Virus record (IMG/VR): IMGVR_UViG_3300048587_000213
Location: 1 to 37,690 of that record
DNA length: 37,690 nt
From: a virus
Reading direction: 5' to 3' (one strand)
The position numbers were made by a program, and so were the translations under genes. A model generated the notes under the pieces. That model was not told the origin of the DNA. It saw only the letters and a list, made by a program, of their open reading frames with translations, and did no database searches. Of the stretch, positions 1 to 36,393 are shown in pieces (positions within the stretch are counted from its first letter, which is position 1; every line of letters starts with the position of its first letter).

Positions 1-56
1 TCGTTGGGCAGCGGCTGGCCGTCGGCGCCGATTTTGATGAGGGTGATAGGTGACAT
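1..56 (-). CDS. DGR target gene, third tandem copy (5' end only)
   Basis: Only the first 18 codons are present, and the gene runs off the left end of the window. It starts at ATG 54-56 on the minus strand with an AGGAG ribosome binding site at 64-68. The visible protein start (MSPITLIKIGADGQPLPN) is identical to that of the complete gene at 90-515, and the DNA is identical over this whole stretch. This is therefore most likely a further copy of the same lectin-like target family. Whether it keeps a variable C-terminus cannot be seen. Alternatively it could be a truncated remnant left by the duplication. Confidence 0.7.
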   Translation of the reverse strand, partial: MSPITLIKIGADGQPLPN

Positions 57-127
57 GGTGATGCTCCTGTTGATGATCAAAAAGGCCAATTACTGACTGG
101 CACGACGCACGGCCAACGCGAACCCGT
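1..127. repeat. 127-bp direct repeat, copy A (copy B at 460-586)
   Basis: Bases 1-127 match bases 460-586 without a mismatch by eye, at an offset of 459 bp. The repeat covers the last codons of one target gene, the short intergenic region with its ribosome binding site, and the first codons of the next target gene. Immediately past the repeat the two copies become the diversified stretch of the variable regions. The repeat shows that the target genes arose by tandem duplication or recombination. The window starts inside it. Confidence 0.9.
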
Positions 128-515
128 TGTTGTTGCGGAGGTAGCTGCTGACGTTGCCGTAGCCGAAATTGACGTTCCACGCGGACGCCGAAGACCAGGC
201 AGCCGGCGTCTTCGACCAGTACCAATCGCTCTGGATGTTGGTGAAGAAGTCGGTGTTGATGGCCGGCTGGTAGCGCGTGCGATCGATGAGCAGCTGCAGC
301 TCTTCGATGGTGGGCAGATCCCAGTCGGTCTTGCCCAGCAGGTCGAGTGCACTGGCGCGTGCCTGCAGGTCTTCCTGGGACTCTTCTTCTTCGTTGATCT
401 GGGTGGCGCTGAATTGCAAGCCAAGGCCGGCAACTTCCACTGCAACCCATTCGATGGCGTCGTTGGGCAGCGGCTGGCCGTCGGCGCCGATTTTGATGAG
501 GGTGATAGGTGACAT
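90..515 (-). CDS. DGR target protein 1, DUF1566/C-type-lectin-like
   Basis: The 141-residue protein starts at ATG 513-515, with AGGAG at 523-527 on the coding strand. A longer TTG-started frame is less likely. Residues about 65-141 look like the C-terminal domain of DUF1566 (Lcl_C) proteins: a DWDLPT-EEL segment, PAI near 85, WYWS at 98-101, an AW pair and a final ALAVR. This fold family includes known DGR targets. The last 28 residues hold an Asn/Ser/Tyr-rich stretch that differs from the gene at 549-1178 only at codon positions where one copy, or a presumed template, has A. The role is inferred to be a ligand-binding display protein whose C-terminus is diversified. It is the second member of a tandem array at the distal end of the leftward operon, 33 bp after its neighbour. 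Confidence 0.8.
   Translation of the reverse strand: MSPITLIKIGADGQPLPNDAIEWVAVEVAGLGLQFSATQINEEEESQEDLQARASALDLLGKTDWDLPTIEELQLLIDRTRYQPAINTDFFTNIQSDWYWSKTPAAWSSASAWNVNFGYGNVSSYLRNNNGFALAVRRASQ
128..206 (-). other. DGR variable region (VR1)
   Basis: This is the 3' part of the target gene at 90-515. Aligned with 587-665, it has 13 differences, all between 128 and 176. In 12 of the 13, one copy carries A on the coding strand; the thirteenth (CTC against CCC) fits an A in the template mutated in both. All ten affected codons change the amino acid: N/G at 114 and 116, G/D 118, Y/N 119, N/V 121, S/G 123, Y/N 125, L/P 126, N/S 129, N/D 130. Bases 177-206 are identical. Adenine-restricted change is the hallmark of mutagenic retrohoming. 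The boundaries are approximate because the template repeat is not in the window. Confidence 0.85.
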
Positions 516-586
516 GGTGATGCTCCTGTTGATGATCAAAAAGGCCAATTACTGACTGGCACGACGCACGGCCAACGCGAACCCGT
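460..586. repeat. 127-bp direct repeat, copy B (copy A at 1-127)
   Basis: This is the second copy of the repeat described at 1-127. It holds the start of the gene at 90-515, the intergenic sequence, and the 3' end of the gene at 549-1178. In a DGR the constant 3' flank of the variable region (the initiation of mutagenic homing area) should be conserved between targets. The end of this repeat next to the variable region fits that place. Confidence 0.9.
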
Positions 587-1178
587 CGCTGTTGCGGGGG
601 TTGCTGCCGACGACGCCGTTGTCGAAACCGACGCCCCACGCGGACGCCGAAGACCAGGCAGCCGGTGTGCTGGTCCAGTGCCAGCGCGGCTTGACGTGAG
701 GGAAGAGGCTCACGTCGATTGCGGGCTCGTGGCGCGTGTCGTCGACCAGGTCGGCGAGTTCGGTGCGGGTGGGCAAGCGCCAGTCGTCGTAGCCCAGCAG
801 GCGCAGCTGCTTGCAGCGTTCGATGCAATGCTCCTGGGTGATGCCGTCGTTTTCGTCAGACGGGTCGCCGAGAGATTCGACGGACCACATCAGACCGGTG
901 CTGTGATCGATCACGGCGAAGTGGTCGGTGCGGTCGCTGTCGGCGGGCAGGTGCAGGCCTTCAGCGGTGACCTTGGTGAAGGCGGTGCGGATGCGTTCAC
1001 CAGGCTGCAGGATGGCCGGCACTTCGTCCGGCCGCAGTCCGGCGATGCCGCCGCTGTGGTAGCGCACCGCGGCGTTGTAGTCCGCCGGTCCCGGCAGTGC
1101 TTTGGTGATGCCGGCGGCAAGCGTTGCCAGCTGTGGCGCAAACAGGTTGCCGGCGACGTGGATGGTGATCTGGTTCAT
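549..1178 (-). CDS. DGR target protein 2, DUF1566/C-type-lectin-like with tape-measure-like motif
   Basis: The 209-residue protein starts at ATG 1176-1178, with AAGGAG at 1186-1191. Residues about 84-209 form a DUF1566 (Lcl_C)-type domain: DHSTGLMW at 91-98, DWRLPT-EL at 132-141, PAID at 152-155, WTSTP at 168-172 and a terminal ALAVR. The C-terminus is a DGR variable region (residues 182-198). The N-terminal part is odd: residues 39-66 (from RYHSGGIAGLRPDEVPAIL onward) closely match the C-terminus of this phage's tape measure protein at 24612-24695. This could be a particle-anchoring or processing motif, or a recombination relic. The gene lies in the leftward operon, 21 bp after its neighbour and followed by target 1. 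Confidence 0.85.
   Translation of the reverse strand: MNQITIHVAGNLFAPQLATLAAGITKALPGPADYNAAVRYHSGGIAGLRPDEVPAILQPGERIRTAFTKVTAEGLHLPADSDRTDHFAVIDHSTGLMWSVESLGDPSDENDGITQEHCIERCKQLRLLGYDDWRLPTRTELADLVDDTRHEPAIDVSLFPHVKPRWHWTSTPAAWSSASAWGVGFDNGVVGSNPRNSDGFALAVRRASQ
587..665 (-). other. DGR variable region (VR2)
   Basis: This is the partner of VR1, at the 3' end of the gene at 549-1178. It has fewer Asn codons than VR1 (GGC, GGT, GTC, GGC and CCC stand where VR1 has AAC, AAT, AAC, AGC and CTC), as if it had gone through more adenine substitutions. At three other places it keeps AAC where VR1 has TAC, or GAC where VR1 has GGC. Neither copy is therefore the template, and both appear to be independently diversified from a common AAC-rich repeat. 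Confidence 0.85.
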
Positions 1179-1199
1179 GGGTGTGCTCCTTGGTATCGG

Positions 1200-1421
1200 T
1201 TAGGAAAGGACTGCGGCAGCACGCTGTGCGCGATCGCGCAGCGCGGAGATTTCGGTGGTTTGTTGCGCAATCAATTCGCGTGCTTCGCGCTCGCTACGCT
1301 CGAGCTCGCGCCACTGACCGGCGCGTTTGCGGTATTCGTGGGCGTTAATGTCGAAGCCACTGCCCGACTCGGTGTCCGCCAGCTTGTCCAGGAAGTCTGG
1401 GCCGGAAAGTTCTGTGCACAT
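1200..1421 (-). CDS. Small coiled-coil phage protein
   Basis: The 73-residue protein starts at ATG 1419-1421, with GAGGAA at 1428-1433. The open frame extends upstream, but only inside the preceding gene. The second half (about residues 30-73) is rich in Arg, Glu and Ala with heptad-like spacing, which suggests a coiled coil. I do not recognise the family. It lies 10 bp after the winged-helix gene and 21 bp before the DGR target gene. It is too short and unlike the usual four-helix Avd to be called a DGR accessory protein, though its place just upstream of the targets makes that worth testing. Confidence 0.6.
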   Translation of the reverse strand: MCTELSGPDFLDKLADTESGSGFDINAHEYRKRAGQWRELERSEREARELIAQQTTEISALRDRAQRAAAVLS

Positions 1422-1431
1422 GGTGGGTTCC

Positions 1432-2082
1432 TCAATCGTCGGTTTCGTCGTCGGGTTCTTCGACGGGGTTTGCGGGAAGGGCGCGCATGGCGTGTGCCTG
1501 GAACGCGCCGCGCTTGGTGCTGTTGATGGTGAAAGCGTCGCGGTAGTCGCCGTTGAGCGGGCGCGAGGTTTCATGCATGCCCAGCTGCTGGATTTTTCCG
1601 CCGCGTGCTTCGAAGTCGGCGATGTCATCAGCGATCTGCATGCTCTCGATGCGCTTGGCAGCCAGGTACGCGCCGCCGTGTGCATTGGCGGCGGTGAGGC
1701 GTTGGGTGTTGATGACACGCGAGGTGAGGCCGGCGCTGTGCTGTGCCTTGACGCGTGGCGTGGGGGCAGGTGCAGCGGTTGGCGTTCGCTTCGCCGGCCT
1801 CGTCTTCACCTGCTGGATGGATGCGGCTTGCGCTTTGGCGGTGCGCTTGTCGATCAGCGCGCCCGGTGCGATGCGGAACATGTTGTTGCCGCCCACTTTC
1901 TTGACCAGCAATCGGCCTTGGCGCTGCAGAGTGGACAAGGTGCCGTACATCAGCGTGCATTCGCTGACGCCCACGGCATCCATGATGTCGCGCACGTTGC
2001 GCGACCGGGTCTGCTTTTCCAGGTAGGTAAGCACCGCGACCGAACGGCCGGTGCGGATGCCGCGTTCGGGAACGCTGCTCAT
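1432..2082 (-). CDS. Winged-helix-like DNA-binding phage protein
   Basis: The protein is 216 residues from ATG 2080-2082, which overlaps the upstream stop in an ATGA arrangement. A GTG three codons earlier is possible. Residues about 12-75 read like a winged helix-turn-helix: a helical segment ending in YLEKQTRSRNVRDIMDAV, then VSECTLMYGTLSTLQRQGRL and a short hairpin with a GGNNMFRI strand. A Pro/Ala/Lys-rich linker of about 50 residues follows. The C-terminal part has no motif I recognise and ends in acidic residues. A regulatory or accessory DNA-binding role is inferred only from the predicted fold. Confidence 0.7.
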   Translation of the reverse strand: MSSVPERGIRTGRSVAVLTYLEKQTRSRNVRDIMDAVGVSECTLMYGTLSTLQRQGRLLVKKVGGNNMFRIAPGALIDKRTAKAQAASIQQVKTRPAKRTPTAAPAPTPRVKAQHSAGLTSRVINTQRLTAANAHGGAYLAAKRIESMQIADDIADFEARGGKIQQLGMHETSRPLNGDYRDAFTINSTKRGAFQAHAMRALPANPVEEPDDETDD

Positions 2083-2627
2083 GCGTCGCACCCCGGTCCG
2101 CGTTCGCCGTAGCTGCCAGGCTTGGTGAAGCGCATGAAGTGGATCCAGCCTTGGTCGGGGCAGTGGAAGCCCCAGTCACGCACGCGAGGTCCGGTGATGA
2201 AGAGCGTCCAGCAGGGTGCTACTACCGTAGCGGACCACGAATATGGATTGGTGCAGTCCATGTTTGGATCAGGTACCTGCACCAGCTCTATGCGGTGTGC
2301 GCGGCTGGGCAGACTGAACTTCCAACTGCCGGCGTGGCGCAGACGCTTGTGGTGGACGCCGCCTGCGGCGATGGTGTGCTCGATGTAGCTGCCACGCAGC
2401 AGCCACGATGCCCAGGCCCACGGATGATCGTGCAGTGCGCGGTCATCGTCGTCACGCAGGAAGTGGTGCAGGTAGACATTGCAGATCGGGTTGCGCGGCA
2501 GCAGGTACCAGCGGCGTAGGTACGCGCCCTGTGGATCCTCTGCGCCCACCACGAAGTTGGGTGGACGCTTGGCGGCGACACGCTGCATGAGCTGGATGAA
2601 GATGAAGTTGGTGAAGCGCTGGATCAC
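2079..2627 (-). CDS. Cupin-like phage protein
   Basis: The 182-residue protein starts at GTG 2625-2627, in a GTGA overlap with the upstream stop. The central region has the look of a cupin or cysteine-dioxygenase-like beta barrel: LHDHPWAWASWLLRGSYIEH around residues 65-84, a GSWKF strand, an AHRIEL motif and a C-terminal strand rich in Trp and His. LHDHPW and AHRIEL could supply the metal-binding histidines. I recall similar uncharacterised proteins in other phages, but the substrate is unknown. It is probably cytoplasmic, as no signal peptide is seen. Confidence 0.7.
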   Translation of the reverse strand: MIQRFTNFIFIQLMQRVAAKRPPNFVVGAEDPQGAYLRRWYLLPRNPICNVYLHHFLRDDDDRALHDHPWAWASWLLRGSYIEHTIAAGGVHHKRLRHAGSWKFSLPSRAHRIELVQVPDPNMDCTNPYSWSATVVAPCWTLFITGPRVRDWGFHCPDQGWIHFMRFTKPGSYGERGPGCDA

Positions 2628-2902
2628 TGCACACCCGCCTTTGTCAGCTCATCGGCAATGCGTTCCCCTTCGCTGGTCAGGGTGATCTGCGTGGGGAATT
2701 CGGGTTCGTCGAAGGTGACCAGGCCGGCGTCATGCAGGCGGTTGACGGTGCGGCGCGTGAACGCCTGGTACATCACGGGCCCGCTGGTGCGGATGCTTCC
2801 GCCGGTGGCGATGTAGCCGCCATTGGCGCGGCGCAGGCTGTGGCTGGGTGTACGCGATGCAGCGAGCAACGCGTCGCGCATCTTGGGTTGCAGTTCTGGC
2901 AT
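2624..2902 (-). CDS. Small winged-helix-like phage protein
   Basis: The 92-residue protein starts at ATG 2900-2902 and overlaps the next gene by 4 bp. The segment from about residue 45 to the end (AFTRRTVNRLHDAGLVTFD, then a TQITLTSEGERIADEL strand and helix) resembles the recognition helix and wing of small MarR-like or phage DNA-binding proteins. The first 40 residues include a Gly/Ser-rich GGYIATGGSI stretch typical of uncharacterised phage proteins. Its function is unknown, and the place in the leftward operon suggests an early or accessory role. Confidence 0.65.
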   Translation of the reverse strand: MPELQPKMRDALLAASRTPSHSLRRANGGYIATGGSIRTSGPVMYQAFTRRTVNRLHDAGLVTFDEPEFPTQITLTSEGERIADELTKAGVQ

Positions 2903-2903
2903 T

Positions 2904-3074
2904 TCAGGCTCCGGGAACGCTGGCGGCGGCCAGCACGAAAAGGGACAGCAACACGACGGCCGCCCAGCCGAGAACGGCAGGCAGCGGGTTGCGTTTGCGG
3001 GGTGTGCGCCGACCAGGCGTGGTGGCGTGGATGCTTTCCATCACGCCTTGCGAGAGCATGTGATCGATGCTCAT
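2904..3074 (-). CDS. Small membrane protein (56 aa)
   Basis: The 56-residue protein starts at ATG 3072-3074, in an ATGA overlap with the stop of the upstream gene, and ends 1 bp before the next start. It has a polar, basic first half (including GRRTPRKRNP at 21-30) and one hydrophobic segment at about 32-52 (LPAVLGWAAVVLLSLFVLAA). This is consistent with a single-pass inner membrane protein. No family is recognised. The coupling on both sides is the main reason to believe it is a real gene. Confidence 0.6.
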   Translation of the reverse strand: MSIDHMLSQGVMESIHATTPGRRTPRKRNPLPAVLGWAAVVLLSLFVLAAASVPGA

Positions 3075-3487
3075 GCGGCACCGCCTACGCGTAGTAGTGC
3101 AGCGGCACGACGGGCGATCGTTGCGCCCAAGTGACGCACTGCGGCCGGAGTCAGGTTTTTCTGACAGGCCTCCCGGGCTTTGTCGTACGCCTGATCCGCG
3201 ACGACCAACTCTTCCACGGCAGCAATTGCTTCGTCCGCCTTGTGAGCTAACGGGTGGCTTCGCGGCATGAAGCTGATGGGATCAGGTGGTGCGTGCAGCT
3301 CGTTGCGCATGGCGCGCATCGTATCGATTGCTTCGACACACGTGCGCACCCCGCCTGGATCGCGTGTAGGTGGGTTGGGTTCGCTGGCTTGAAGACGCAG
3401 GCTATGATCGTTATTGCTGACGATGCCTCCCCGTGAATGACGCCCAGGCCAGATTGCAGACAGGATCCGGTGCAAGAGGGCGCTCAT
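3071..3487 (-). CDS. Hypothetical phage protein
   Basis: The protein is 138 residues from ATG 3485-3487, chosen because that ATG overlaps the upstream stop (ATGA). The open frame extends further upstream only as a shadow of the preceding gene. The C-terminal half is helical and Ala-rich (HKADEAIAAVEELVVADQAY onward) and ends in an RRAAALLRVG helix. There are no catalytic motifs, signal peptide or membrane segment. The function is unknown; it is part of the leftward operon. Confidence 0.55.
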   Translation of the reverse strand: MSALLHRILSAIWPGRHSRGGIVSNNDHSLRLQASEPNPPTRDPGGVRTCVEAIDTMRAMRNELHAPPDPISFMPRSHPLAHKADEAIAAVEELVVADQAYDKAREACQKNLTPAAVRHLGATIARRAAALLRVGGAA

Positions 3488-3714
3488 GCCGTCACCGCCC
3501 GCGGATGGATATCGTCGTTGCAGTGCTGGACGTCGCCTTCGATGAAGGGTTCCACCTTGCCGGTGGCGGTGAGGATGGCCTGCGCGAATGCGGCCATTTC
3601 CTCGCGTGTGCCCACCAGGTTGGGCGCGTGCATGCCGAAGGCGATGTGGATACGTCCGTGCAGGCCGACATGCACGACCGGCACCACGACCAGGCTGGCT
3701 TGGTTGCACATCAT
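3484..3714 (-). CDS. Hypothetical phage protein (76 aa)
   Basis: The 76-residue protein begins with two Met codons. ATG 3712-3714 is favoured because it overlaps the stop of the upstream gene by 4 bp. The protein also overlaps the next start by 4 bp, so it sits in a chain of coupled genes. It has a beta-strand-like first half (SLVVVPVVHVGLHGRIHIAF) followed by a helical segment with TREEMAAFAQAIL. I do not recognise the family. Confidence 0.55.
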   Translation of the reverse strand: MMCNQASLVVVPVVHVGLHGRIHIAFGMHAPNLVGTREEMAAFAQAILTATGKVEPFIEGDVQHCNDDIHPRAVTA

Positions 3715-3923
3715 CCGCGCACCGCACCGCACACTGGCGCCTTGGTGTTGTGGTAGTTGGCGAGCTCCATGGCGCGCATCGGCACGACCCACAGCGCGAG
3801 CAACGCCATTGCCACCCACGCGAGGGTCAGCCAGTGACGGCGCAGCCAGTTGCGGGCGGTGTGGACGTCGCATTCGATGCGGCGTCGCAGGGAAAGAAGG
3901 GCGGGGCGCTGGGCGGTAGCCAT
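3711..3923 (-). CDS. Small membrane protein (70 aa)
   Basis: The 70-residue protein starts at ATG 3921-3923, which shares one base with the preceding TGA (TGATG). An ATG five codons upstream is possible but lies inside the previous gene. Residues 10-30 are basic and Trp/His-containing. A single hydrophobic helix lies at about 31-49, and the remaining 20 residues are polar with one Cys. It is probably a single-pass inner membrane protein of unknown role. Confidence 0.55.
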   Translation of the reverse strand: MATAQRPALLSLRRRIECDVHTARNWLRRHWLTLAWVAMALLALWVVPMRAMELANYHNTKAPVCGAVRG

Positions 3924-4168
3924 CAGCGTGCCTCCCATGCCAGTTCGTCGCTGCGTGCTTCGGTGCGCTTTTCCTTTACCTTCAGCAGCCGCGCACGGCG
4001 CTTGTGGTCCTGGAAGTGCTCACCGCCTGCGCTGCTGCGCAGTGCCTTGGCGTGCTGGTGGTCTGCGCGGCTGGCGGCACGCATGCAGCGCATGGCAGCC
4101 GGGGGCAGGGTGGCGGTGGGCTCTGCGGTGCTGGTTTCGCTGTCCAGGGATGCGATGGCGTCGAACAT
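3923..4168 (-). CDS. First gene of the leftward operon, basic hypothetical protein
   Basis: The 81-residue protein starts at ATG 4166-4168 with a GGAGAGG ribosome binding site just upstream. The first 25 residues are acidic or neutral, and the rest is strongly basic (HFQDHKRRARLLKVKEKRTE), suggesting nucleic acid binding. There is no recognised domain. As the first gene after the operator-controlled promoter at 4318-4346 it holds the place of an early regulator such as lambda N, but the sequence alone does not show antitermination activity. Confidence 0.55.
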   Translation of the reverse strand: MFDAIASLDSETSTAEPTATLPPAAMRCMRAASRADHQHAKALRSSAGGEHFQDHKRRARLLKVKEKRTEARSDELAWEAR

Positions 4169-4317
4169 GGCGGCCTCTCCGGTGTGGAAAGGGCGACCCG
4201 CCGCGCAGGCAAGGAAGGGGGCGATGCCTGCGCTGGCGGGTATTGCCACCGGAAAAGCCGAGGGGATGCGGCGAAACCGGCGGTGCCCTGCCCGGTCGGG
4301 TGACCGGACGGCTCGCA

Positions 4318-4346
4318 CCCTACACGTAGCGTGTAGCGCATGTCAA
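4318..4346 (-). promoter_or_regulatory. Leftward early promoter (PL-like)
   Basis: On the minus strand a perfect TTGACA -35 element lies at 4341-4346. A weak -10 (TGTAGG, 16-bp spacing) lies at 4319-4324. The promoter is bracketed by the two operators at 4321-4335 and 4345-4359, so a bound repressor would cover both elements. It would drive the whole leftward operon from 4168, including the DGR target genes, with a leader of about 145 bases. Confidence 0.6.
4321..4335. promoter_or_regulatory. Repressor operator, left site 1
   Basis: This is the perfect inverted repeat TACACG-TAG-CGTGTA. It shares its form with 4345-4359, 5174-5188 and 5190-5204, and overlaps the spacer and -10 of the leftward promoter. 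Confidence 0.75.
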
Positions 4347-4359
4347 CACGAAATGTGTA
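4345..4359. promoter_or_regulatory. Repressor operator, left site 2
   Basis: AACACG-AAA-TGTGTA is one base away from an ideal half-site on the right arm. It overlaps the end of the TTGACA element of the leftward promoter. The centres of the two left operators are 24 bp apart. Confidence 0.7.
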
Positions 4360-4419
4360 GCTGTGCCGCAATATTTGTAATCAGGGCACTTTTGGCCCCG
4401 GCTACGCTGGTTTCAGCGC

Positions 4420-4692
4420 TCAGTCTTGGGTTTTGGCGGCTGCAGGAACGGGCGGGGGTGATCTGGCGGCATGTTCCCGATGCGCGAACTGCTGCGCCAT
4501 GACGCTATTTTCGGGAATCATGTTCCGGTTGCCGCAGGACGGGCAGGCTTTGTGGCGTGCTGAAATGCGCCAAATGCTATAGATCAAACCGCCGATGATG
4601 AGGCAAAAAATGTATAGGCCAAGTTCGATGATGATCGACCCTGGTGTGACGCTACGGGGCAAGCCCCGGAAGCCGCAGTTGGTGCAAAGCAT
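4420..4692 (-). CDS. Zinc-ribbon membrane protein downstream of the repressor
   Basis: The 90-residue protein starts at ATG 4690-4692 with AAGGAG at 4698-4703. It has CxxC pairs at residues 3/6 and 50/53, which could form one zinc ribbon, and a hydrophobic helix at about 19-41 between them. A Pro/Ala-rich tail follows. It is transcribed with the repressor gene, which ends 9 bp upstream, so it should be made in the lysogen. A role in lysogenic conversion or superinfection immunity is possible, but nothing in the sequence proves it. Confidence 0.65.
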   Translation of the reverse strand: MLCTNCGFRGLPRSVTPGSIIIELGLYIFCLIIGGLIYSIWRISARHKACPSCGNRNMIPENSVMAQQFAHREHAARSPPPVPAAAKTQD

Positions 4693-4701
4693 GCCATCTC
4701 C

Positions 4702-5121
4702 TTATGCCGAATGTTTTGTACGCACCGCCGGCTCTGAGATTTCCTGTTTTTCCGGCGTTACTTCGTAGCCCGATTGAGCATCCGCAACGCCATGAATGGC
4801 GCGCTTCCCGCGGTCGTCTGTAGTCCTGTATTTCTCGAATAGCGCCTGTTCGTCCTTGCCCATGATGGCATCAGGGAACCCCAGGATGGCCGAGGGTGAA
4901 ATGTTGCCGTAAATGCTGCACAAGATCTGTATTACCAAGGGGTCTGGCAGGCGCGTCCCCTGTTCGTAGTTCCCTATACGTGATGAAGGCAGTTCTTTCC
5001 CCAAAGCGCGGCCCAGTCGTTCAGCAGCAATTTCCTGCGTGATATCGGCGGATTCCCTTGCCACCTTCAGGCGTTTCCCCACTTCGCGCCTGTATTCCGA
5101 CTTTTTCTGATCGTAGTTCAT
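4702..5121 (-). CDS. XRE-family phage repressor (CI-like)
   Basis: The protein is 139 residues from ATG 5119-5121. The frame stays open into the operator region, so a longer form starting nearer 5229 is possible but would run through the operators. Residues about 10-70 form an HTH_3/XRE domain (GKRLKVARESADITQEIAAE, then SSRIGNYEQGTRLPDPLVIQ). The C-terminal part is short and helical and lacks an S24/LexA-type peptidase domain, so RecA-stimulated self-cleavage is not expected. No ribosome binding site is seen before the start, as in leaderless repressor mRNAs. It is divergent from the Cro-like gene and presumably binds the four ACACG-N3-CGTGTA sites. Confidence 0.85.
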   Translation of the reverse strand: MNYDQKKSEYRREVGKRLKVARESADITQEIAAERLGRALGKELPSSRIGNYEQGTRLPDPLVIQILCSIYGNISPSAILGFPDAIMGKDEQALFEKYRTTDDRGKRAIHGVADAQSGYEVTPEKQEISEPAVRTKHSA

Positions 5122-5173
5122 CACAAAAGCGTAGGGTGACCCTGAACGGGCGGCCAGATTGGAACCGTGTAGA

Positions 5174-5188
5174 TACACCTTGCGTGTA
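5174..5188. promoter_or_regulatory. Repressor/Cro operator, right site 1
   Basis: TACACC-TTG-CGTGTA overlaps the proposed -35 (TTGCGT, 5180-5185) of the rightward promoter. A weaker half-site (CGTGTA at 5166-5171) precedes it at about one site's spacing and may belong to a third, degenerate operator. Confidence 0.7.
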
Positions 5189-5208
5189 GAACACGTTTCG
5201 TGTAGTTT
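5180..5208 (+). promoter_or_regulatory. Rightward early promoter (PR-like)
   Basis: TTGCGT at 5180-5185 is followed 17 bp later by TAGTTT at 5203-5208. Transcription would start at about 5215, so the cro-like mRNA would be nearly leaderless. Both right operators lie inside the promoter. The -10 is weak, so the exact placement is uncertain. Confidence 0.45.
5190..5204. promoter_or_regulatory. Repressor/Cro operator, right site 2
   Basis: AACACG-TTT-CGTGTA starts 16 bp after right site 1, so both would lie on nearly the same face of a helix about 1.5 turns apart. It covers the spacer of the rightward promoter. Confidence 0.75.
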
Positions 5209-5216
5209 GCCGGGCC

Positions 5217-5444
5217 ATGACGACATCATTGGCTAATTTCATCACCGAAGTGGGCGACGCCGAGGCGGGTGCCTTGTTCCAAGTGAAGCTGCGCACCGTC
5301 CAGTCCTGGCGCCGCGGCGAGCGCTTCCCGCGCCCGGAACAGGCCCGGATCATCGTCGACGTGACCAATGGTCGCGTGGATATGCAGGGTATCTACGGAA
5401 CTGCTTTCCGTGAAACCAGCGAACAGCTGGCAAGGGTGGGCTGA
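5217..5444 (+). CDS. Cro/YdaS-like helix-turn-helix protein
   Basis: The 75-residue protein starts at ATG 5217-5219. Its first 55 residues have the layout of Cro/YdaS proteins: a helix ending in AEAGALFQVKLRTVQSWRRG, then RFPRPEQARIIVDVTNGRVD. It is the first gene of the rightward early operon, and the divergent repressor and shared operators support a Cro role in the lysis-lysogeny switch. No ribosome binding site is evident; a leaderless message is inferred. Confidence 0.8.
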   Translation: MTTSLANFITEVGDAEAGALFQVKLRTVQSWRRGERFPRPEQARIIVDVTNGRVDMQGIYGTAFRETSEQLARVG

Positions 5445-5445
5445 C

Positions 5446-5709
5446 ATGCGCTCCATTTCCGATGACGACATGGAACGCGCACTCAACAGTACGTTGGGCG
5501 AAGACGCCGTTCTCAGAGTGGTTCGCCGGAAACAGGCGGCCCTTGCAGCGCCTCGATCAACTCTGAGTAGTGTGCGAGTGTCTTTCGCCACCCTTCGGAT
5601 ACTTCTGCGCTGGGCGCGGGATCTGATCCGACAAGCTCGTCTACAAGCTCTGGCAGAACTTCTGGCCACATCTGCGCCAGGGAATGCGGCAAGGGATGCG
5701 TCGCCATGA
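5446..5709 (+). CDS. Possible small early gene after cro
   Basis: This 87-residue frame begins 1 bp after the cro-like stop, with GGGTGGG upstream of ATG 5446-5448. Its first 30 residues (MRSISDDDMERALNSTLGED onward) look like genuine protein. The rest, rich in Arg, Ala, Leu and Ser, overlaps the opposite-strand gene at 5513-5788, whose product looks more natural. Either the gene is real and the two overlap antisense, or it has been truncated by the insertion of the minus-strand gene. Confidence is low. Confidence 0.35.
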   Translation: MRSISDDDMERALNSTLGEDAVLRVVRRKQAALAAPRSTLSSVRVSFATLRILLRWARDLIRQARLQALAELLATSAPGNAARDASP

Positions 5710-5788
5710 CGATGTCCAGGACATACCGCAACGCACGCACTTCGCCTGACAACTGCAAAAGCAGTTGCCGTTCCAATTTGCTTTCCAT
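5513..5788 (-). CDS. Small helical protein encoded against the early operon
   Basis: The 91-residue protein starts at ATG 5786-5788 with a GGAG ribosome binding site about 7 bases upstream (CCGGAGACC). It is helical and acidic: MESKLERQLLLQLSGEVRAL at the start, then a segment with two Trp. There is no signal peptide, membrane helix or recognised domain. It is the only minus-strand gene inside the early rightward region, so it is either independently expressed (for example in the lysogen) or antisense to the cro operon. Confidence 0.5.
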   Translation of the reverse strand: MESKLERQLLLQLSGEVRALRYVLDIVMATHPLPHSLAQMWPEVLPELVDELVGSDPAPSAEVSEGWRKTLAHYSELIEALQGPPVSGEPL

Positions 5789-5874
5789 GTCGGTCTCCGG
5801 TGGTGGGATGGTTGTCGGGCGATTCCCAGCCTATCACCGGCAGACCGGCACCCATTGGGGTGCGGTGGTGATCT

Positions 5875-6195
5875 ATGCGTAAGCTCAGCCAGCTGCAGGT
5901 GTTGGAAATGGTGCTCAACAACTGGCACCGCAAGGAGTATCCCGCCGGCAGCTTCGGGCCGTCAGTACGGGGCACGGCTTGGTTTCTCTGGGTGATTGTT
6001 CTGGCTGCCCTGGTCTTGGCCGCGCTGGCTGTGATCGTGCAGCTGTATCCCCAGCCGAAAGAACACTGCGACCACCGCCCCCGGGCCGGTGCGGATGTTG
6101 AATGTCCGCATGACGTGCAGGCGAAGGCGGGTAGGGAAGGGAAGGACGTTGTGCATGGCCTGGATTCTGCAGGCCCGCATGAGGTGCGCGCATGA
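5875..6195 (+). CDS. Early membrane protein
   Basis: The 106-residue protein starts at ATG 5875-5877. A Trp-rich hydrophobic helix lies at about 35-57 (TAWFLWVIVLAALVLAALAV). A polar N-terminus precedes it and a His/Asp/Glu-rich C-terminus follows. The end overlaps the next gene by 4 bp (ATGA). The family is not recognised. Confidence 0.6.
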   Translation: MRKLSQLQVLEMVLNNWHRKEYPAGSFGPSVRGTAWFLWVIVLAALVLAALAVIVQLYPQPKEHCDHRPRAGADVECPHDVQAKAGREGKDVVHGLDSAGPHEVRA

Positions 6196-6770
6196 AGGCC
6201 GCCCGTCAATTTCTGCCGCCGCGGCAGTCGGTTATCTATGCGCACACGCGTCAGATGCTGGACAGCACAGGCTGCAACTACACGTCGTTCGCAATGACGG
6301 TGGCCGAGAACTACATCGGCATGACCGCACCCGATGTGCGCCAGGTCAAGCTGCGTACCGGTGACGGCGCTGACCTGATCAAGGCCATGGACAACAACGC
6401 CCAGATCATTCGTCGCTACATGGATGGCACAGTCAAGACGCTGCCCGCCGATCTGGAAGATGCGTGGGTGATGAGCCTGCCCGAGCCGTATCGCAGCAAC
6501 TGCGAACGCGACTTGGCGCGCAGGCGTGGTGTGCTGCCGGTGAAGCTGGTCAGCGATACCGAAGCTGACCAGGCGGTGGGCATTGCCAACCTGATGTCGG
6601 AGTTCGGCGATCTGATTGCCGCGCTGTCGCCTGCGATGAGTGATGGGCGCATTGATGCAGAAGACTTGCCGCACGCTAGGAGAATCCTTGATGAGTCGGA
6701 TGACCTGATCATCGCCATCACTGGTGTGCGCAGGCGCGTGCATGCGCTACTCCCCGGTGTCGAGCCCTGA
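6192..6770 (+). CDS. Early phage protein, possible CII-like regulator
   Basis: The 192-residue protein starts at ATG 6192-6194. It is mostly helical with no Cys pairs. Its segment VAENYIGMTAPDVRQVKLRT, followed about 15 residues later by IIRRYMDGTV, could be a DNA-binding helical region. Position between cro and the replication genes is where CII-type or replication regulators lie in lambdoid phages, and that is the only basis for the suggestion. Coupling to both neighbours (ATGA before, TGATG after) supports expression in the early operon. Confidence 0.6.
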   Translation: MKAARQFLPPRQSVIYAHTRQMLDSTGCNYTSFAMTVAENYIGMTAPDVRQVKLRTGDGADLIKAMDNNAQIIRRYMDGTVKTLPADLEDAWVMSLPEPYRSNCERDLARRRGVLPVKLVSDTEADQAVGIANLMSEFGDLIAALSPAMSDGRIDAEDLPHARRILDESDDLIIAITGVRRRVHALLPGVEP

Positions 6771-6991
6771 TGCTTATGGCCAGGGGGAGGCCGCCACACT
6801 GGAACCGCAGCGTCATTGCACATCCAAACGTGCATGCGAACGCGGGTTTGGTGCGTGCGATGACTGAGCTATACAGCGACGCACCTGGTCTGGCTGGAGA
6901 CGATGCGCTGGCTGAGAAAGCGCGATACCGCATCGAGGATGACGCCAAGCGCACGTGCCAAGGTGTTCTGGTGCTTGAGGTCAAGGCATGA
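6770..6991 (+). CDS. Hypothetical early protein (73 aa)
   Basis: The 73-residue protein starts at ATG 6770-6772, sharing one base with the previous TGA, and overlaps the primase start by 4 bp. It contains LVRAMTELYSDAPGLAG and a basic, Trp-containing N-terminus. There is no recognised motif. Translational coupling on both sides is the main support. Confidence 0.55.
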   Translation: MLMARGRPPHWNRSVIAHPNVHANAGLVRAMTELYSDAPGLAGDDALAEKARYRIEDDAKRTCQGVLVLEVKA

Positions 6992-8109
6992 ACGAGCGTC
7001 GCATCAATGACGTAGAGCGCGCTCGCTTGTGCGAGCAAGCCAACCTGGTTGACCTGATCGGTGGATCCATCCAGCTGAAGAAGCGCGGCAAGAATTACGT
7101 GGGGTGTTGCCCGTTCCATGGAGAGCGCACGCCCAGTTTCAACGTGATTCCGTCAAAGCAATATTTCCACTGCTACGGATGCGGCAAGAACGGCGACGCC
7201 ATCACCTGGTTGATTGAGCAGCATGGACTGGATTTCGTCGAGGCTTGCAAGTGCCTCGATGAACGGGCTTTCGAAAGGCTGGATCTGACCACCGCCCGCA
7301 TCATCGCGCCTGCGCCGGAGGCTGTCCCCGACGTGCGGCTGGTGCCGCTGCTGCCTGTGCCCCGCGATGCGCCTTCGCTGTTCGGGACTGATGGTTGGAC
7401 AGTGCCCATATTCAACCCGGGCAAGAATAAGGCATCCAAGTGGAAGCCACTGCGGGCCGACGAATATCGAGACGGTGAGGGTGGTCTGCTGGGCTACGTG
7501 TTACGGGCGGAATTCAAGGACGACAGCGGCAAGTTCACGAAGGTGACGCCGACGGTCACGTACTGCATCAAGCCCGATGGCAGCAAGACGTGGGCGCTGT
7601 GCCTGTTCCCCATCCTGCGCCCGTTGTGCGGCCTTGATGAGCTTGCGGCGAAGCCTGACGCGCCTGTTTTGATCGTGGAGGGCGAAAAGTGCCGCGCCGC
7701 TAGCGCTGGCGCGTTGCCGATGTACGCGACGGTGACATGGCCAGGCGGCAGCAACGGCTTGGGTGGCACGTCGTGGCATGACGCCGTGAAGGGTCCGCAC
7801 TACACGCAGCCGCTTGTGGACTGGTCTGCCATGGCCGGCCGCGATGCGGTGTTGTGGCCCGATGCCGATGAGGCGGGACAGCGCGTGATGCTTGGCCACA
7901 AAGATTCCAGCGGGCGATGGCATCCGGGCGTGGTGGATTTTTTGACCCGCGCAGGAGCTCGCTCCATTCGAATGATTGATACCACTGGGCAGCCGAAAGG
8001 CTGGGATATAGCCGACGCGCTAGATCCTGCTGGCAATGGTTGGTCGCCGCCTCAACTTGCTGCATGGGCCAAAGAGCGCGTGGTGCAGGTCGAAGTTCAC
8101 CGGGTATGA
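6988..8109 (+). CDS. DNA primase, CHC2 zinc finger plus Toprim-like domain
   Basis: The protein has 373 residues. The N-terminus carries a CHC2 zinc finger: C41-P-F-H44, the ERTPSF motif, then FHCYGCGKNGDAI with C62 and C65. The C-terminal half has Toprim-type acidic motifs: LIVEGEK with E231 and WPDADEAG with D292 and D294. Such proteins make RNA primers or recognise the origin in phage and plasmid replication. It is shorter than bacterial DnaG and paired with a VirE-type helicase by an ATGA overlap, so the two probably form the phage primase-helicase. It is preceded in the same operon by small early genes. Confidence 0.85.
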   Translation: MNERRINDVERARLCEQANLVDLIGGSIQLKKRGKNYVGCCPFHGERTPSFNVIPSKQYFHCYGCGKNGDAITWLIEQHGLDFVEACKCLDERAFERLDLTTARIIAPAPEAVPDVRLVPLLPVPRDAPSLFGTDGWTVPIFNPGKNKASKWKPLRADEYRDGEGGLLGYVLRAEFKDDSGKFTKVTPTVTYCIKPDGSKTWALCLFPILRPLCGLDELAAKPDAPVLIVEGEKCRAASAGALPMYATVTWPGGSNGLGGTSWHDAVKGPHYTQPLVDWSAMAGRDAVLWPDADEAGQRVMLGHKDSSGRWHPGVVDFLTRAGARSIRMIDTTGQPKGWDIADALDPAGNGWSPPQLAAWAKERVVQVEVHRV

Positions 8110-9446
8110 CTGTGCCGAAGAAACTGACAGTGATCGTGGGCGGTGGTAGTCCGCCAGGCGGCGGGCAGACCGGCGCCGACGATTGGCAAAACAAGCTGAC
8201 CTGCACCAAAGACGGTGCGGTCCAAGCCGCCATGCACAACCTGATGCTGATTCTGGAAATGGATCCGCAACTGGCTGGGCTGTTGGCGCTGGATGAGTTC
8301 GCCAACCGCGTGGTCGTGCGCCGAGCGCCGCCGTGGAGTGGCGGCAACGACGGTGAGTTCACTGAGCTGGATGGCGTTGAGCTTTCGGCCTGGTTGGGCT
8401 CACCGGATCGATACCAGATGATCGTGAAGTCATCCATGGTGCTGGAGGCCGTTGAAGCGGTAGCGCGTCGACACAAGTTCCACCCGGTGCGTGATTACCT
8501 GCGCACCTTGAAGTGGGACGGCGAGCCCCGGTTGCGGCGACTGTTCGTGGATCACTTCGGTGCAACGGATGATGAGTATCACCAGCGCGTTGCTGAGATA
8601 TTCATGGTCAGCGCCGCGGCCCGCATTCTGCGCCCAGGCTGCAAGGTTGACACGATGCTGGTGCTCGAAGGCGGGCAAGGGCTCGGTAAAACCCGCGTGA
8701 CGCAAGTCCTGTTCGGCGGTGACCGGTGGTACATGGATGCGCAGCGCAGCCCCGCTGAAAAAGACTTCTATCAGGACATCGTGGGGAAGTGGGGTGTGGA
8801 GATCGGCGAGATGACGTCGTTCTCCAAGGCTGAGACCAACAAGGTCAAGCAAACACTTTCCGCCACCAGTGACACGTACCGGCCCAGCTATGGCCGCTAC
8901 AGCCGCACCTTTCCGCGGCAGTGCGTCTTCATCGGCACTACCAACGAGAACGAGTGGCAACGCGACCACACCGGTGGGCGTCGCTTTCTGCCTGTAGGCG
9001 TGACACGTGTGGACGTGAGTGCGATTGAAGCCGTGCGCGACCAGCTGTGGGCTGAGGCTGTGGCGCTGTTGGATGATGGTTTGGATTGGTGGGTGTTGCC
9101 CTCGGATGCGAAAGACCAACAGGACGAGCGTTACCTGGAGGATTCGTGGTCCGAGCCGATCAGCCGATGGTTAGACGGGCGAGCGCCCAGCAGCGACAAG
9201 GTGGATGTGTATGCAGGGATCGAGATGTGCCAGAACCCTTACATCGTCACTGAGTGCTCAACGACCGAGATCCTGACTCGCGCCCTGCACATCGATCTTG
9301 CGCGGCATACCAAGCAGGATCAGATGCGCGTGGCCGCAATCATGACGCGCCTTGCTTGGGATAAGTACCGACCTCAACGTTATGGAACGCGGGTGTGGCT
9401 GTGGCTTCGGACTGGGCCATATAGGGGGGGCGATGCGCCAGCCTGA
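8106..9446 (+). CDS. VirE-family (virulence-associated E) replicative helicase/ATPase
   Basis: The protein is 446 residues from ATG 8106-8108, which overlaps the primase stop. It has a Walker A motif LEGGQGLGKT at about 187-196 and, further on, GEMTSFSKAETNKVKQ and an arginine-containing GTTNENEWQRDHTGGRRFLP motif, as expected of VirE (PF05272) proteins related to SF3 helicases. This ATPase is expected to unwind or melt the phage origin in partnership with the primase. It is immediately followed by the iteron cluster at 9455-9682, which suggests that origin recognition happens next to its own gene. Confidence 0.9.
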   Translation: MTVPKKLTVIVGGGSPPGGGQTGADDWQNKLTCTKDGAVQAAMHNLMLILEMDPQLAGLLALDEFANRVVVRRAPPWSGGNDGEFTELDGVELSAWLGSPDRYQMIVKSSMVLEAVEAVARRHKFHPVRDYLRTLKWDGEPRLRRLFVDHFGATDDEYHQRVAEIFMVSAAARILRPGCKVDTMLVLEGGQGLGKTRVTQVLFGGDRWYMDAQRSPAEKDFYQDIVGKWGVEIGEMTSFSKAETNKVKQTLSATSDTYRPSYGRYSRTFPRQCVFIGTTNENEWQRDHTGGRRFLPVGVTRVDVSAIEAVRDQLWAEAVALLDDGLDWWVLPSDAKDQQDERYLEDSWSEPISRWLDGRAPSSDKVDVYAGIEMCQNPYIVTECSTTEILTRALHIDLARHTKQDQMRVAAIMTRLAWDKYRPQRYGTRVWLWLRTGPYRGGDAPA

Positions 9447-9852
9447 CTCGCGACCTGCCCAACCAGGTTGGACGTGCCCAACCTGCTGCCCAACCTCTAT
9501 AGCTAGCAGGGACGGGCGGCCGTCCAACCTGCCCAACCTTTTCTCCATGCGCACGTGTAAGAGAGTGGCTCGGTACTTCCTCTATGTATGTTCGTACAGG
9601 TTAGGCAGGTTAGGCAGGTTGGACGCAGCCAGCAATGGCGTGGGTTTCCGCCTGCCTAACCTATGCGCTATTGGTTGGGCAGGTATGGCAGGACGTTTCA
9701 CGGGAATCCCTAGGGGCGTTCAGGTTAGCGGCGCCTGTTCGAACCTGAACGCCAAGCTGAACAATGGGTCCTCCCTGGGGGTCGTGGTTACGGGTAATTC
9801 GGACCTCGGTTTGTCGCTAGTCACAAGGGTGATTCAGCGGGGGGGGTTGTAA
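9433..9852 (+). CDS. Doubtful ORF across the iteron region
   Basis: This 139-residue frame starts at ATG 9433 after a G-rich stretch (9424-9430) and ends with a TAATG overlap with the terminase small subunit. Repeated PNL and RLG units in the product simply translate the DNA iterons, and the composition (Cys-rich, no domain) is unlike a folded phage protein. It is listed because of the ribosome-binding-like sequence and coupling. The stretch 9447-9851 is more likely an origin and spacer than a gene. Confidence 0.2.
   Translation: MRQPDSRPAQPGWTCPTCCPTSIASRDGRPSNLPNLFSMRTCKRVARYFLYVCSYRLGRLGRLDAASNGVGFRLPNLCAIGWAGMAGRFTGIPRGVQVSGACSNLNAKLNNGSSLGVVVTGNSDLGLSLVTRVIQRGGL
9455..9682. repeat. Iteron cluster, candidate replication origin
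   Basis: The 10-bp motif CTGCCYAACC occurs in plus orientation at 9455-9464, 9486-9495, 9529-9538 and 9652-9661, and with one mismatch at 9474-9483. It occurs in minus orientation (GGTTRGGCAG) at 9599-9608, 9608-9617 and 9673-9682, with core-only copies at 9466-9471, 9524-9529 and 9617-9622. Plus copies cluster on the left and minus copies on the right of a less GC-rich segment (about 9541-9598). Such inverted iterons beside primase and helicase genes fit a replication origin with an unwinding element. Function is inferred. Confidence 0.6.
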
Positions 9853-10400
9853 TGGAAGGGCTCACTGTCCCGCTCACTCAGGCGGAGTTCGGCGAGTTGA
9901 TCGGCGTCACGCAGCAGGCGGTCGCCGGTCTATTGCAGCGCGGCGTGCTGGTCGATGGCGCCGCTGGTGAGGATTGGCTGATCGCGTACTGCGAACACCT
10001 GCGCGAGATTGCCGCTGGCCGCGGCGGAGAGGAGGGCGTCCGCCTGAATCTTGAGAACACCAGGGCGACCATCCGCGGCAAGAACGCCGACAACGCACGC
10101 AAGGAACTCGCGCTCGCTGAGAAGCGGCGCGAGCTCATGCCCACCTATCTACTGGAAGAAGTGCTCGCGAAAGCCAGCTCTCGCGCTGGCCGCATCCTGG
10201 ACACGATCCCGGGCGAGGTCCGCCGCCGGCTGCCGCAGCTCACCAGCAGCGACATCGCCGCCGTGACCGCGACGGTTGCCCGCGCACGCAACCTGGCGGC
10301 GCAGGTATCGCTCGCCGACCTTGAGATCAGCATCGACGCCGCTGCCGACCAGGACGCAGAAAGCGACGAAGCCCTGCAGGCCGAGGCGGACGCGGCATGA
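9852..10400 (+). CDS. Terminase small subunit (Nu1-like)
   Basis: The 182-residue protein starts at ATG 9852 after a run of G (9839-9846). Residues about 5-40 form a winged-helix DNA-binding domain of the Nu1 type (TQAEFGELIGVTQQAVAGLL). A long charged helical region follows (ENTRATIRGKNADNARKELA), and then a segment that would contact the large subunit. It recognises the packaging site and delivers DNA to the motor. It overlaps the large-subunit start by 4 bp. Confidence 0.85.
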   Translation: MEGLTVPLTQAEFGELIGVTQQAVAGLLQRGVLVDGAAGEDWLIAYCEHLREIAAGRGGEEGVRLNLENTRATIRGKNADNARKELALAEKRRELMPTYLLEEVLAKASSRAGRILDTIPGEVRRRLPQLTSSDIAAVTATVARARNLAAQVSLADLEISIDAAADQDAESDEALQAEADAA

Positions 10401-12478: not shown

Positions 12479-12489
12479 GCGAAACCACC

Positions 12490-12810
12490 ATGGCCGAAGA
12501 CGCAAAAGCTGACGAAATGACCGACACCCTACGCACCTCCTTTGCGGAAAGCATCCGCCGTGGCGTGCCGGATATTCCTGCGCATCACGCACTGCAAATG
12601 GCGGATGCACTCTGTGCGGTCCAGGCCGATGTGTTGGCGGGGCTTCGTGTCACGTATAGAGCTCGACCAGAAGTGGATGTGGAAGCGATTGCTGAGGACT
12701 GGCGGCAAGGGCGATCAATTGGCGAGATTGTGGAAAAGCACAAGGTCAGTCGATCGATGGCCTATAAGTGCCACCCCAGCAAGACTGTGCGTCCGGCAAA
12801 GCAGGGCTGA
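12490..12810 (+). CDS. Small HTH (Mor-like) protein
   Basis: The 106-residue protein starts at ATG 12490. The C-terminal part (VDVEAIAEDWRQGRSIGEIV, then EKHKVSRSMAYK) is a helix-turn-helix like that of the Mor/C family of Mu-like activators, preceded by a helical region. A regulatory role in late gene expression is possible. Position between terminase and portal, where no regulator is needed, also allows a packaging or head accessory role. Confidence 0.6.
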   Translation: MAEDAKADEMTDTLRTSFAESIRRGVPDIPAHHALQMADALCAVQADVLAGLRVTYRARPEVDVEAIAEDWRQGRSIGEIVEKHKVSRSMAYKCHPSKTVRPAKQG

Positions 12811-22279: not shown

Positions 22280-22280
22280 C

Positions 22281-24866
22281 ATGGCACAACCGGCAGCGAA
22301 TCTCCGCGTACGCATTTCTGCAGACCTTGCTGATATCAAGCAAGGTCTGGGCTTGCTGCGTGGCGAGCTGGCCAAGGTCAAGAAGGACGCGGCGCAGACC
22401 ACGCCCGACACCACCAAGTGGGCAGCGGGCATTGGCAAAGTACGTGCGGAGCTGGTGAACTTGGCAGGGGCATACATTGGCCTGCGCGGAATCACGGCAG
22501 GCATTCAAGGACTGTTCGCCGCGATTGATCGTGCCGATCGCGTCGGTGAGCTTGCTGTACAAGCCGGCGTGTCGGCAGAAGCGCTCTCTCGCTTAGGGTA
22601 TGCGGCCGGGTTTGCCGGCATTGACGTCGAGCAGCTGGGCGACGGCTTGGTAAAGTTCAGCCGCACCCTCGTGTCCAACTCCGACTTGATCAGCAAGCTT
22701 GGTGTCGATGTCTACGAGGCGGGCACCAAGAACTTCAGGCCAACCGAACAGATCATTGCCGACTTGGCCGATACGTTCGCGAGCCTGCCCGATGGGCCTT
22801 ATCGTGCAGCACTCGCTGTAAAGCTATTCGGAAAATCCGGTGCAGATCTTATCCCGCTATTAGTAGAGGGCAAAGAGAAGCTCAAGGAATACGCCGATGA
22901 AGCAGATGCAACTGGCCGTACGATTACCGGAGCCGCGACAGCGGCAGCGAGCGAGTTCAGAGACAACTTGGACCGGCTCAAAGGTACGCTGACGGGCCTC
23001 GCAAATGAGACCGTCAAGAACCTGATACCGGCAATTTCAGGGTATGCGGAAGAAGCGGTAGCCGCAGGAGAAGCATCAAATTATGCAGCACGTGGCGGCA
23101 AATTCCTCGCGACGGTGCTGAAGGGCGTGTCCGTCGTCGGCATTGTGCTGAAGAACGTGATTGAAGGCGCAGTAAATGTAATCACGTTCCTCGGTACGAC
23201 CTCCGTCAGCGTGGCCAAGATTGTTTCGGGTTCGCTAGGCAAAGCGCTAGGCGCGGTTGCTGCTTCGTACGACAGCTTGTTGTCTGGCACTAGCCCGCTG
23301 CAAGTGTTCGCCGCTTTCCGCTCAGCAATGAACGGTATCGACACCGCTGCTGCGACTGAGATTACCCGGATTCGTGCGGGCTTTGACTCCATGCGTAGCG
23401 GTCTCGGGGATGCCGCGTCTGATATTGCGCAGGTTGGCAAGATATTCAGCGAAACAGCGCAGCAAGCAGCAGATGATGCCAAGGACATGGGGGACGCTGC
23501 CAACGGTGTCTCCCCCGCCAGCAAAGAAGCGATGGACGCCATTCGCAAGCTATTGGCGGGCGATGAAAAGGGGGGCAAGGATTCCGACGCCGCCGCCAAG
23601 CTGAAGAAGCTGCGCGAAGAAGCCGAGCGCCTGCGCAAAGAAGAGGAGAGGGCCGCTGCCGAGCGCGCCAAAGAAGCGGAGGATCTGGCCCGCGACCTCG
23701 GCCAGGTAAAGATCAAGCTGCTCGAGCTCGATGGCGAGACCGGCCGTGCTGCACGTGCGCAGCTGGAAGAGGAATACCTGGACCTATTCCGCCGCTTGGA
23801 AAAGGCCAGTGATGAAACCGGCACCGCCATGGTGCGGAACCTCATCGAGCGTCTGGCCGCCAAGGCGCAGCTGGACCAGATCGAAAGCAAGGTCGGTGAA
23901 GCCACCGGCTCGCTTCAGGGCACGGAGACATCCATCTCCGCCCAAGTATCCGCTGGCATGCTCAGCAGCCTGGAAGGTGAGCGCCAGCTCGAGGCCGCAC
24001 GTAAGCAAGCAATCATCACGCTGGCCGCCGCACGCCAGTCCACGCTGGAATATCTGGCCACGCTCGCGCCGGGCAGCATGGAGGCGGACGCCGCCCGCCT
24101 GACCCTCCAGGGCATCAACACCGACATCGCCAACATCGTCGCGTCGCAGAACCAATGGAAGCAGGATGTCGAGTCGGCCGGCCAATCCTCTCTGATGACG
24201 TTCTTCACCGACCTGAAGAATGGAGCAATGAGCGCGGGCGAAGCGGTTCTTGCGTTGGGCGCAAACTTTGCCGACGCCATGTACCAAATGGCATCGACAG
24301 CCTTGTCCAAGAAAATCGTCGGTGCTATCAGCGGCCTCTTCAGCAAAGGCGCTGGCGGCGACCAGGCTGACGTGGCTGCCGGCGCCACCAAGCTAACGGC
24401 TGCCGCCACCGAAACGGCGCTTGCAGGGGGCATCGTTGCACTCGGCGCCACCAGCCTCAGCAGCGCCGCGAAGGAACTGCAGGCCGCTGCCACATCGCTG
24501 ATGATCGCAAACAGCTTCGGCAGCTTCGGCGCCGCACACGGTGGCGGCACCGTGGGTGCGTTGACCATGACGCGCCACAACATCAACCCCATGGTGTTCG
24601 GTGCCGCGCCGCGCTACCACGACGGTGGCATTGCCGGCCTGCGCCCTGGCGAAGTGCCGGCTATCCTGATGGAGGGCGAGCGCATCCGCACCGCCGAGCA
24701 GGAAAAAGCCCTGCAGGCGCGACTGGCGGGTGCGGGAAGCACCGCCATGCCCACACCTATCCTGGTGTTCGGCGAAGACCAGCTTGCCGATGCGCTGGCC
24801 GGCAAGGCCGGTGAGGCGGTGGTAGTGCATCACGTCCGTAACAACCGGGCGGCCATCGATGTCTGA
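22281..24866 (+). CDS. Tail tape measure protein
   Basis: The 861-residue protein starts at ATG 22281. It is a long helical protein with membrane-like Gly/Ala stretches (VLKGVSVVGIVLKNVIEGAV near 277-296), a strongly charged coiled coil (LKKLREEAERLRKEEERAAA near 441-460) and an Ala-rich hydrophobic region near 700-745. The C-terminus has YHDGGIAGLRPGEVPAIL, a motif common in tape measure proteins of this group. It sets tail length and helps DNA cross the envelope. It overlaps the next gene by 8 bp. Confidence 0.9.
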   Translation: MAQPAANLRVRISADLADIKQGLGLLRGELAKVKKDAAQTTPDTTKWAAGIGKVRAELVNLAGAYIGLRGITAGIQGLFAAIDRADRVGELAVQAGVSAEALSRLGYAAGFAGIDVEQLGDGLVKFSRTLVSNSDLISKLGVDVYEAGTKNFRPTEQIIADLADTFASLPDGPYRAALAVKLFGKSGADLIPLLVEGKEKLKEYADEADATGRTITGAATAAASEFRDNLDRLKGTLTGLANETVKNLIPAISGYAEEAVAAGEASNYAARGGKFLATVLKGVSVVGIVLKNVIEGAVNVITFLGTTSVSVAKIVSGSLGKALGAVAASYDSLLSGTSPLQVFAAFRSAMNGIDTAAATEITRIRAGFDSMRSGLGDAASDIAQVGKIFSETAQQAADDAKDMGDAANGVSPASKEAMDAIRKLLAGDEKGGKDSDAAAKLKKLREEAERLRKEEERAAAERAKEAEDLARDLGQVKIKLLELDGETGRAARAQLEEEYLDLFRRLEKASDETGTAMVRNLIERLAAKAQLDQIESKVGEATGSLQGTETSISAQVSAGMLSSLEGERQLEAARKQAIITLAAARQSTLEYLATLAPGSMEADAARLTLQGINTDIANIVASQNQWKQDVESAGQSSLMTFFTDLKNGAMSAGEAVLALGANFADAMYQMASTALSKKIVGAISGLFSKGAGGDQADVAAGATKLTAAATETALAGGIVALGATSLSSAAKELQAAATSLMIANSFGSFGAAHGGGTVGALTMTRHNINPMVFGAAPRYHDGGIAGLRPGEVPAILMEGERIRTAEQEKALQARLAGAGSTAMPTPILVFGEDQLADALAGKAGEAVVVHHVRNNRAAIDV
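24612..24695 (+). other. Tape-measure C-terminal motif shared with DGR target 2
   Basis: These 28 codons encode RYHDGGIAGLRPGEVPAIL followed by MEGERIRTA. The DGR target gene at 981-1064 (minus) encodes RYHSGGIAGLRPDEVPAIL followed by QPGERIRTA. The two agree at about 24 of 28 residues and share long runs at the DNA level. Confidence 0.85.
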
Positions 24867-36331: not shown

Positions 36332-36379
36332 TGACTCTTAATCAATAGGTCGAAGGTTCGAATCCTTCACAGCCCACCA
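36332..36379 (+). other. Phage attachment site core from the 3' part of tRNA-Lys(CUU)
   Basis: From the anticodon stem on, the sequence is tRNA-Lys-like: TGACTCTTAATCA with anticodon CTT, the T arm GAAGG-TTCGAAT-CCTTC and a 3' end AGCCCACCA ending at 36379. Upstream there is no D arm and no 5' acceptor strand to pair with CAGCCCA, so it is not a full tRNA gene. It is the identity core used to integrate into a host tRNA-Lys gene and restore its 3' end. Phage genes lie on both sides, as expected for attP. Confidence 0.8.
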
Positions 36380-36393
36380 TACTAAACAACGAC

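Follow-up and report, generated by a model that had tools for sequence, protein, structure and literature searches.

Two targets of a diversity-generating retroelement at the left end of a truncated temperate-phage contig

The window analysed here, i.e., an IMG/VR viral record of 37,690 bases, is a truncated phage contig with two neighbouring genes on the minus strand at its left end. Target gene 1 (549..1178; 209 aa) combines an N-terminal tape-measure-like segment with a C-terminal Lcl_C domain (E 1e-25), and target gene 2 (90..515; 141 aa) carries the same domain (E 5e-21); a Pfam profile search thus assigned both to Lcl_C (PF07603/DUF1566), with the domain at the C-terminus, in keeping with the DUF1566/C-type-lectin-like context recognized in a preliminary description of this DNA. 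Direct repeats occupy window positions 1-286 and 460-745, at a spacing of 459 bp. On the coding (minus) strand, 177-206 is identical to 636-665 and 1-127 is identical to 460-586, with 13 substitutions located in 128-176; the 13-base difference between the C-terminal repeats of the adjacent genes, along with its flanking identities, was therefore reproduced exactly as first reported. An A is found in one of the two copies at 12 of the 13 differing positions on the coding strand, and every change in the 10 affected codons is nonsynonymous, both as originally stated. The remaining position (139/598, T versus C) had been proposed to represent a template A lost from both copies, and the template located subsequently reads CAC at this site, making it a template A as well.

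Target 1 was modelled with AlphaFold (mean pLDDT 75, with the N-terminal 60 residues poorly and the variable part moderately resolved), and the best PDB match of the model was the C-terminal domain of Legionella Lcl (8q4e, E 9.5e-4), followed, weakly, by C-type lectins. From the Lcl_C matches and this fold match, the variable repeats (VRs) sit at the C-termini of C-type-lectin-like targets.

No reverse transcriptase (RT) was found inside the 37,690-base window in an RVT_1 search, and the template repeat (TR) and Avd also lie outside it; the lack of an RVT_1 match is explained by truncation of the contig. Three related IMG/VR records (G001-G003) encode the same gene pair, all with an RVT_1 reverse transcriptase. 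In G001, positions 5605-24354 align to window positions 72-18821 and the record extends past the contig break, revealing the gene order target 1, target 2, avd-like gene, TR, RT. The avd-like product (147 aa) matches phrog_3206 ("Avd protein of DGR", E 3.9e-17) as well as NF033474 of NCBIfam (E 1.4e-10) and PF22296 of Pfam (E 6e-5), the latter two below curated cut-offs; an Avd-like accessory protein is a frequent, though not universal, component of such elements. The RVT_1 match has an E value of 1.6e-14 in G001 and of about 1e-15 across G001-G003 and relatives, with the catalytic YVDD and an IGNLSSQ motif invariant or nearly so in this set, matching the DGR-type pattern (YxDD, and [I/V/L]GxxxSQ in motif 4); the best solved-structure match for the RT is 8ub7 ("Reverse transcriptase", E 3e-35), and identity to BPP-1 brt is about 31%. 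The RT and Avd-like gene of a diversity-generating retroelement (DGR), predicted at the outset to lie left of position 1, are hence both encoded by the same phage in G001; the opposite outcome, in which neither an RT nor a template repeat existed anywhere, is not the case. Judging by this alignment, the avd-like gene, TR, and RT of G001 most likely represent what stands to the left of window position 1.

The TR spans 108 bp (L001:10950-11057) and is flanked by avd and the RT domain; its variable part reads AACGTCAATTTCAACAACGGCAACGTCAACAACAACCACCGCAACAACAAC. The preliminary description had called for a template carrying A wherever the two VRs of the window differ (13 positions), mostly in AAC codons, and the G001 TR is precisely of this form. 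Compared to the template, VR1 (555..662, minus strand; 108 bp) is changed at 13/24 A sites and VR2 (96..203, minus strand; 108 bp) at 7/24, with 0/84 other bases changed in each (Fisher P for A versus non-A sites, 1e-10 and 1e-5, respectively). Pooling of six distinct VRs, each scored against the TR of its own record, gave changes at 82/144 A sites and 0/504 non-A sites; change is thus confined to adenine, with no sign of C, G, and T template positions being altered as often as A. The VR of G002 target 2 (L002 10391 region), which is shorter than its own TR by one codon, was left out of this pool. Where G003 departs from the G001 template at non-A sites (two differences), its own TR does so too. 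As the template is known and only A sites have changed, a chance origin of the 13-base pattern is excluded. At the level of sequence, a single template serves both targets, with the gene order and the A-confined substitutions supporting a DGR.

Between window positions 72-18821 and G001 (18,750 bp), there are only 17 mismatches, five of which (75-87) belong to the stub at the contig end and twelve of which (127-176) belong to VR2. Outside of the stub, i.e., across the 18,734 bp of window positions 88-18821, each of the 12 differences is at a TR adenine of VR2; were 12 substitutions scattered at random over 18.7 kb, the probability of all falling inside the 108-bp VR would be about 1e-27. On these alignments, the divergence of VR2 between the window and G001 provides strong evidence for a natural record of mutagenic retrohoming. 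In the middle of VR2, five substitutions are common to the window and G001, with both ends of the window copy being identical to the template, such that the window VR2 may have arisen piecemeal over successive events, or else have been blended in assembly. Were it a blend, whether several VR2 variants or VR2 and the TR went into it, the count of 12 differences from G001 would be misstated. The shared mid-repeat substitutions and template-like ends fit such a blend; however, retrohoming in patches over time, or recombination between variants, would look alike, and we consider blending a tenable but less probable origin for this copy. Whether or not VR2 was blended, the A-only pattern stands.

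Repeat comparison identified bases 1-127 of the window as a contig-end copy of 460-586 (100% identical), beyond which lie avd, TR, and RT in G001. In the window, VR2 thereby runs into the gene 1 flank, which differs from the sequence 3' of target 2 in G001. A usual largest k-mer of metagenome assemblers is 127. Since the length of the copy equals this value, and since the G001 target 2 flank differs, bases 1-127 are probably an assembly-end artefact in which the graph re-entered the repeat. A genuine DGR with three tandem targets could also be envisaged, in which 1-89 would start a further gene copy, generated via unequal crossing-over between VR 3' ends; this would account for the joining of VR2 to the gene 1 flank and has a parallel in the related locus L107, where three tandem targets are spaced about 464 bp apart. 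Against this, the identity covers exactly the 127 bp of the k-mer and ends at a variable site, and G001, G002, and G003 contain only two targets each, rendering a third target in the window unlikely. As for a tandem duplication of a lectin gene with positive selection on the binding loop and no retroelement, it would explain the tandem paralogues with the same domain and the uniformly nonsynonymous changes, but it is refuted by the adenine restriction and the template (not one of the non-A sites being changed), and with an intact TR/RT/Avd cassette adjoining the targets in the same phage (G001) and two genomes that are the same over 18.6 kb save for 12 VR2 adenines, its probability is negligible.

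Toward the other end of the window, an attachment-site-like core (36332..36381) corresponds to the 3' half of tRNA-Lys, the complete tRNA-Lys being found there in G001/G002, and is followed by an integrase (36394-37623, minus strand) that is 100% identical to that of G003 and 46% identical to that of G001. The tRNA-Lys core and the integrase together indicate a temperate phage and a contig that runs through the attachment junction; this junction would be that of either the circular form or a neighbouring prophage, and either phages would have exchanged modules or prophages would lie in tandem. Given the difference between the integrases, the stretch missing from the window could differ from that in G001. 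Also encoded in this region (35405-36289, plus strand) is a DUF5131 protein (PF07505, E 9e-109), which likewise resembles radical SAM mobile pair protein A.

The same organization, with the TR directly upstream of the RT domain and with one to three VRs per locus, was detected in 27 related viral loci (L098-L125 minus L116, which starts 171 bases before its RT match; G001-G003 are included). For the best 60-mer per VR in the main register, no non-A mismatches were present across these 27 loci, except for two VRs with one each; two 60-mer rows that show three non-A mismatches repeat, in a shifted register, VRs already in the set. Some VRs are up to about 6 kb away from the TR. At L104 2189, L105 2191, L108 2462, L110 2029, and L125 2646, additional DUF1566 targets lie about 5-6 kb away from the TR; they again show change at A only, and the 3' flank is similar in those inspected. 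Relatives of the RT (66-72% identity) were found in 4/91 Stenotrophomonas genomes. A nucleotide search of the phages collection, using the repeat region and 24 kb of the genome, returned no match, and the matches to target 1 in a search of genome contigs were dominated by its tape-measure-like segment and do not denote hosts of this DGR.

Beyond the region of TR homology, where a difference between the IMH of a VR and the IMH* of a TR would be sought, the 3' flank reads CAGTRRTTKG after the VRs inspected and GAGTTTCAGGG after the TRs. This common VR flank may serve in recognition, or may be a mere trace of joint duplication of a VR and its flank. In BPP-1 and many phage DGRs, a GC-rich hairpin/cruciform is located just after the VR (PMC3240598), and such a hairpin is not strictly required (PMC12875486); here, no perfect stem of at least 6 bp with a 3-6 nt loop was present in the 80 nt that follow any VR inspected. 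The post-VR hairpin is an associated, rather than a defining, DGR feature. Across all 27 loci, the RT frame runs uninterrupted from a start codon that shares bases with a TGA, through the TR, and into the RT domain; the overlap ahead of the TR is ATGA (GTGA once), with the TGA in L001 being the avd stop codon. The frame of the TR within the RT open reading frame (ORF) is also that used in the targets, in all loci except L107. The template may thus be translated as the N-terminus of the RT. Support for translation through the TR comes from the open frames and the in-frame nature of length changes, and not from a test of codon positions for the peptide encoded ahead of the TR, in which the third-position excess was modest (0.24, 0.31, 0.38). 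A TR inside the RT ORF was rejected as a novelty in itself, as DiGReF group 3 already has the TR overlapping this ORF (PMC3521204).

Taken together, the left end of the window almost certainly holds the target portion of a DGR that has two targets and resides in a temperate tailed phage, whose host is probably Xanthomonadaceae/Stenotrophomonas-like. By extension of BPP-1 biology, TR RNA would be reverse transcribed by an RT-Avd complex, with errors introduced at adenines, and the resultant cDNA would replace VR1 or VR2, so as to randomise about a dozen residues of the C-type-lectin-like binding surface. Both lectin-like proteins would then recognise a variable surface, whether in phage adsorption or in a role at the lysogen surface.

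Where the hypervariable proteins might be located is hinted at by target 1, in which residues about 20-66 resemble a C-terminal segment of tape-measure proteins, including that of the phage itself: a 93-bp stretch of the gene (981..1073, minus strand) shares 81% identity with the 3' portion of the phage's tape-measure gene (22281-24866), the matching segment (24603..24695, plus strand) lying near the tape-measure C-terminus. This segment is missing from the G002 homologue of target 1, and the motif was confined to this phage among the DGR loci scanned. Based on the likeness, we hypothesize that target 1 may be positioned at the tail tip. A more elaborate proposal is that a borrowed tape-measure C-terminal segment anchors target 1 in the virion, presenting a hypervariable lectin at the tail tip, the place at which the tape measure ends, and that this DGR group recognises its targets by a conserved linear flank (CAGTRATTKG) instead of the BPP-1 hairpin; we regard this combination as speculative and quite improbable.

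Ultimately, two environmental phage records that match over more than 18 kb and part only at 12 template adenines in a single target most likely constitute a clean, rare natural record of retroelement hypermutation. The system belongs to a temperate-phage family in which one template serves several lectin targets, one of them with a tape-measure-like segment, and it suggests testable ideas as to the site of hypervariable proteins and the recognition of targets in the absence of a hairpin.

Several VRs per system are common, occurring in 28.6% of non-redundant DGRs; moreover, among named DGR target domains, DUF1566 is the commonest, and five DUF1566 targets have been described for one Stenotrophomonas DGR (PMC6642488). 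In several clades, most targets of viral DGRs are proteins of the tail (PMC8144416). As multi-VR, DUF1566-target, and tail-protein DGRs are all already in the literature, the present system is a further case of a known kind; less usual are (i) its conserved flank without a BPP-1-type hairpin, (ii) a TR that may be read in frame as the RT N-terminus, and (iii) the tape-measure-like segment in target 1. The DGR of Bordetella phage BPP-1 (mtd-avd-TR-brt) is alike in its target-avd-TR-RT order, its adenine-restricted VR, the C-type-lectin-like C-terminus of its target, and its homologous RT (31%). It differs in having one target as opposed to two, in that target being Mtd as opposed to DUF1566/Lcl_C proteins, in the GC-rich hairpin (PMC3240598) that was not found after the VRs here, and in the in-frame placement of the TR within the RT ORF here. 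The DGR of Stenotrophomonas sp. SKA14 (PMC6642488), likened by description, is also multi-target with DUF1566 targets and comes from a genus with related RTs, but is reported to have two TRs and six VRs, compared to the one TR and two VRs of the present system. The likeness to DiGReF structure group 3 (PMC3521204) lies in the overlap of the TR with the 5' part of the RT ORF, with the RT frame here open from the avd ATGA/GTGA overlap through the TR in 27/27 loci. Finally, the nearest solved fold to target 1, the C-terminal domain of Legionella pneumophila Lcl (8q4e), is part of a bacterial collagen-like adhesin, whereas here it is matched by a phage-encoded DGR target.
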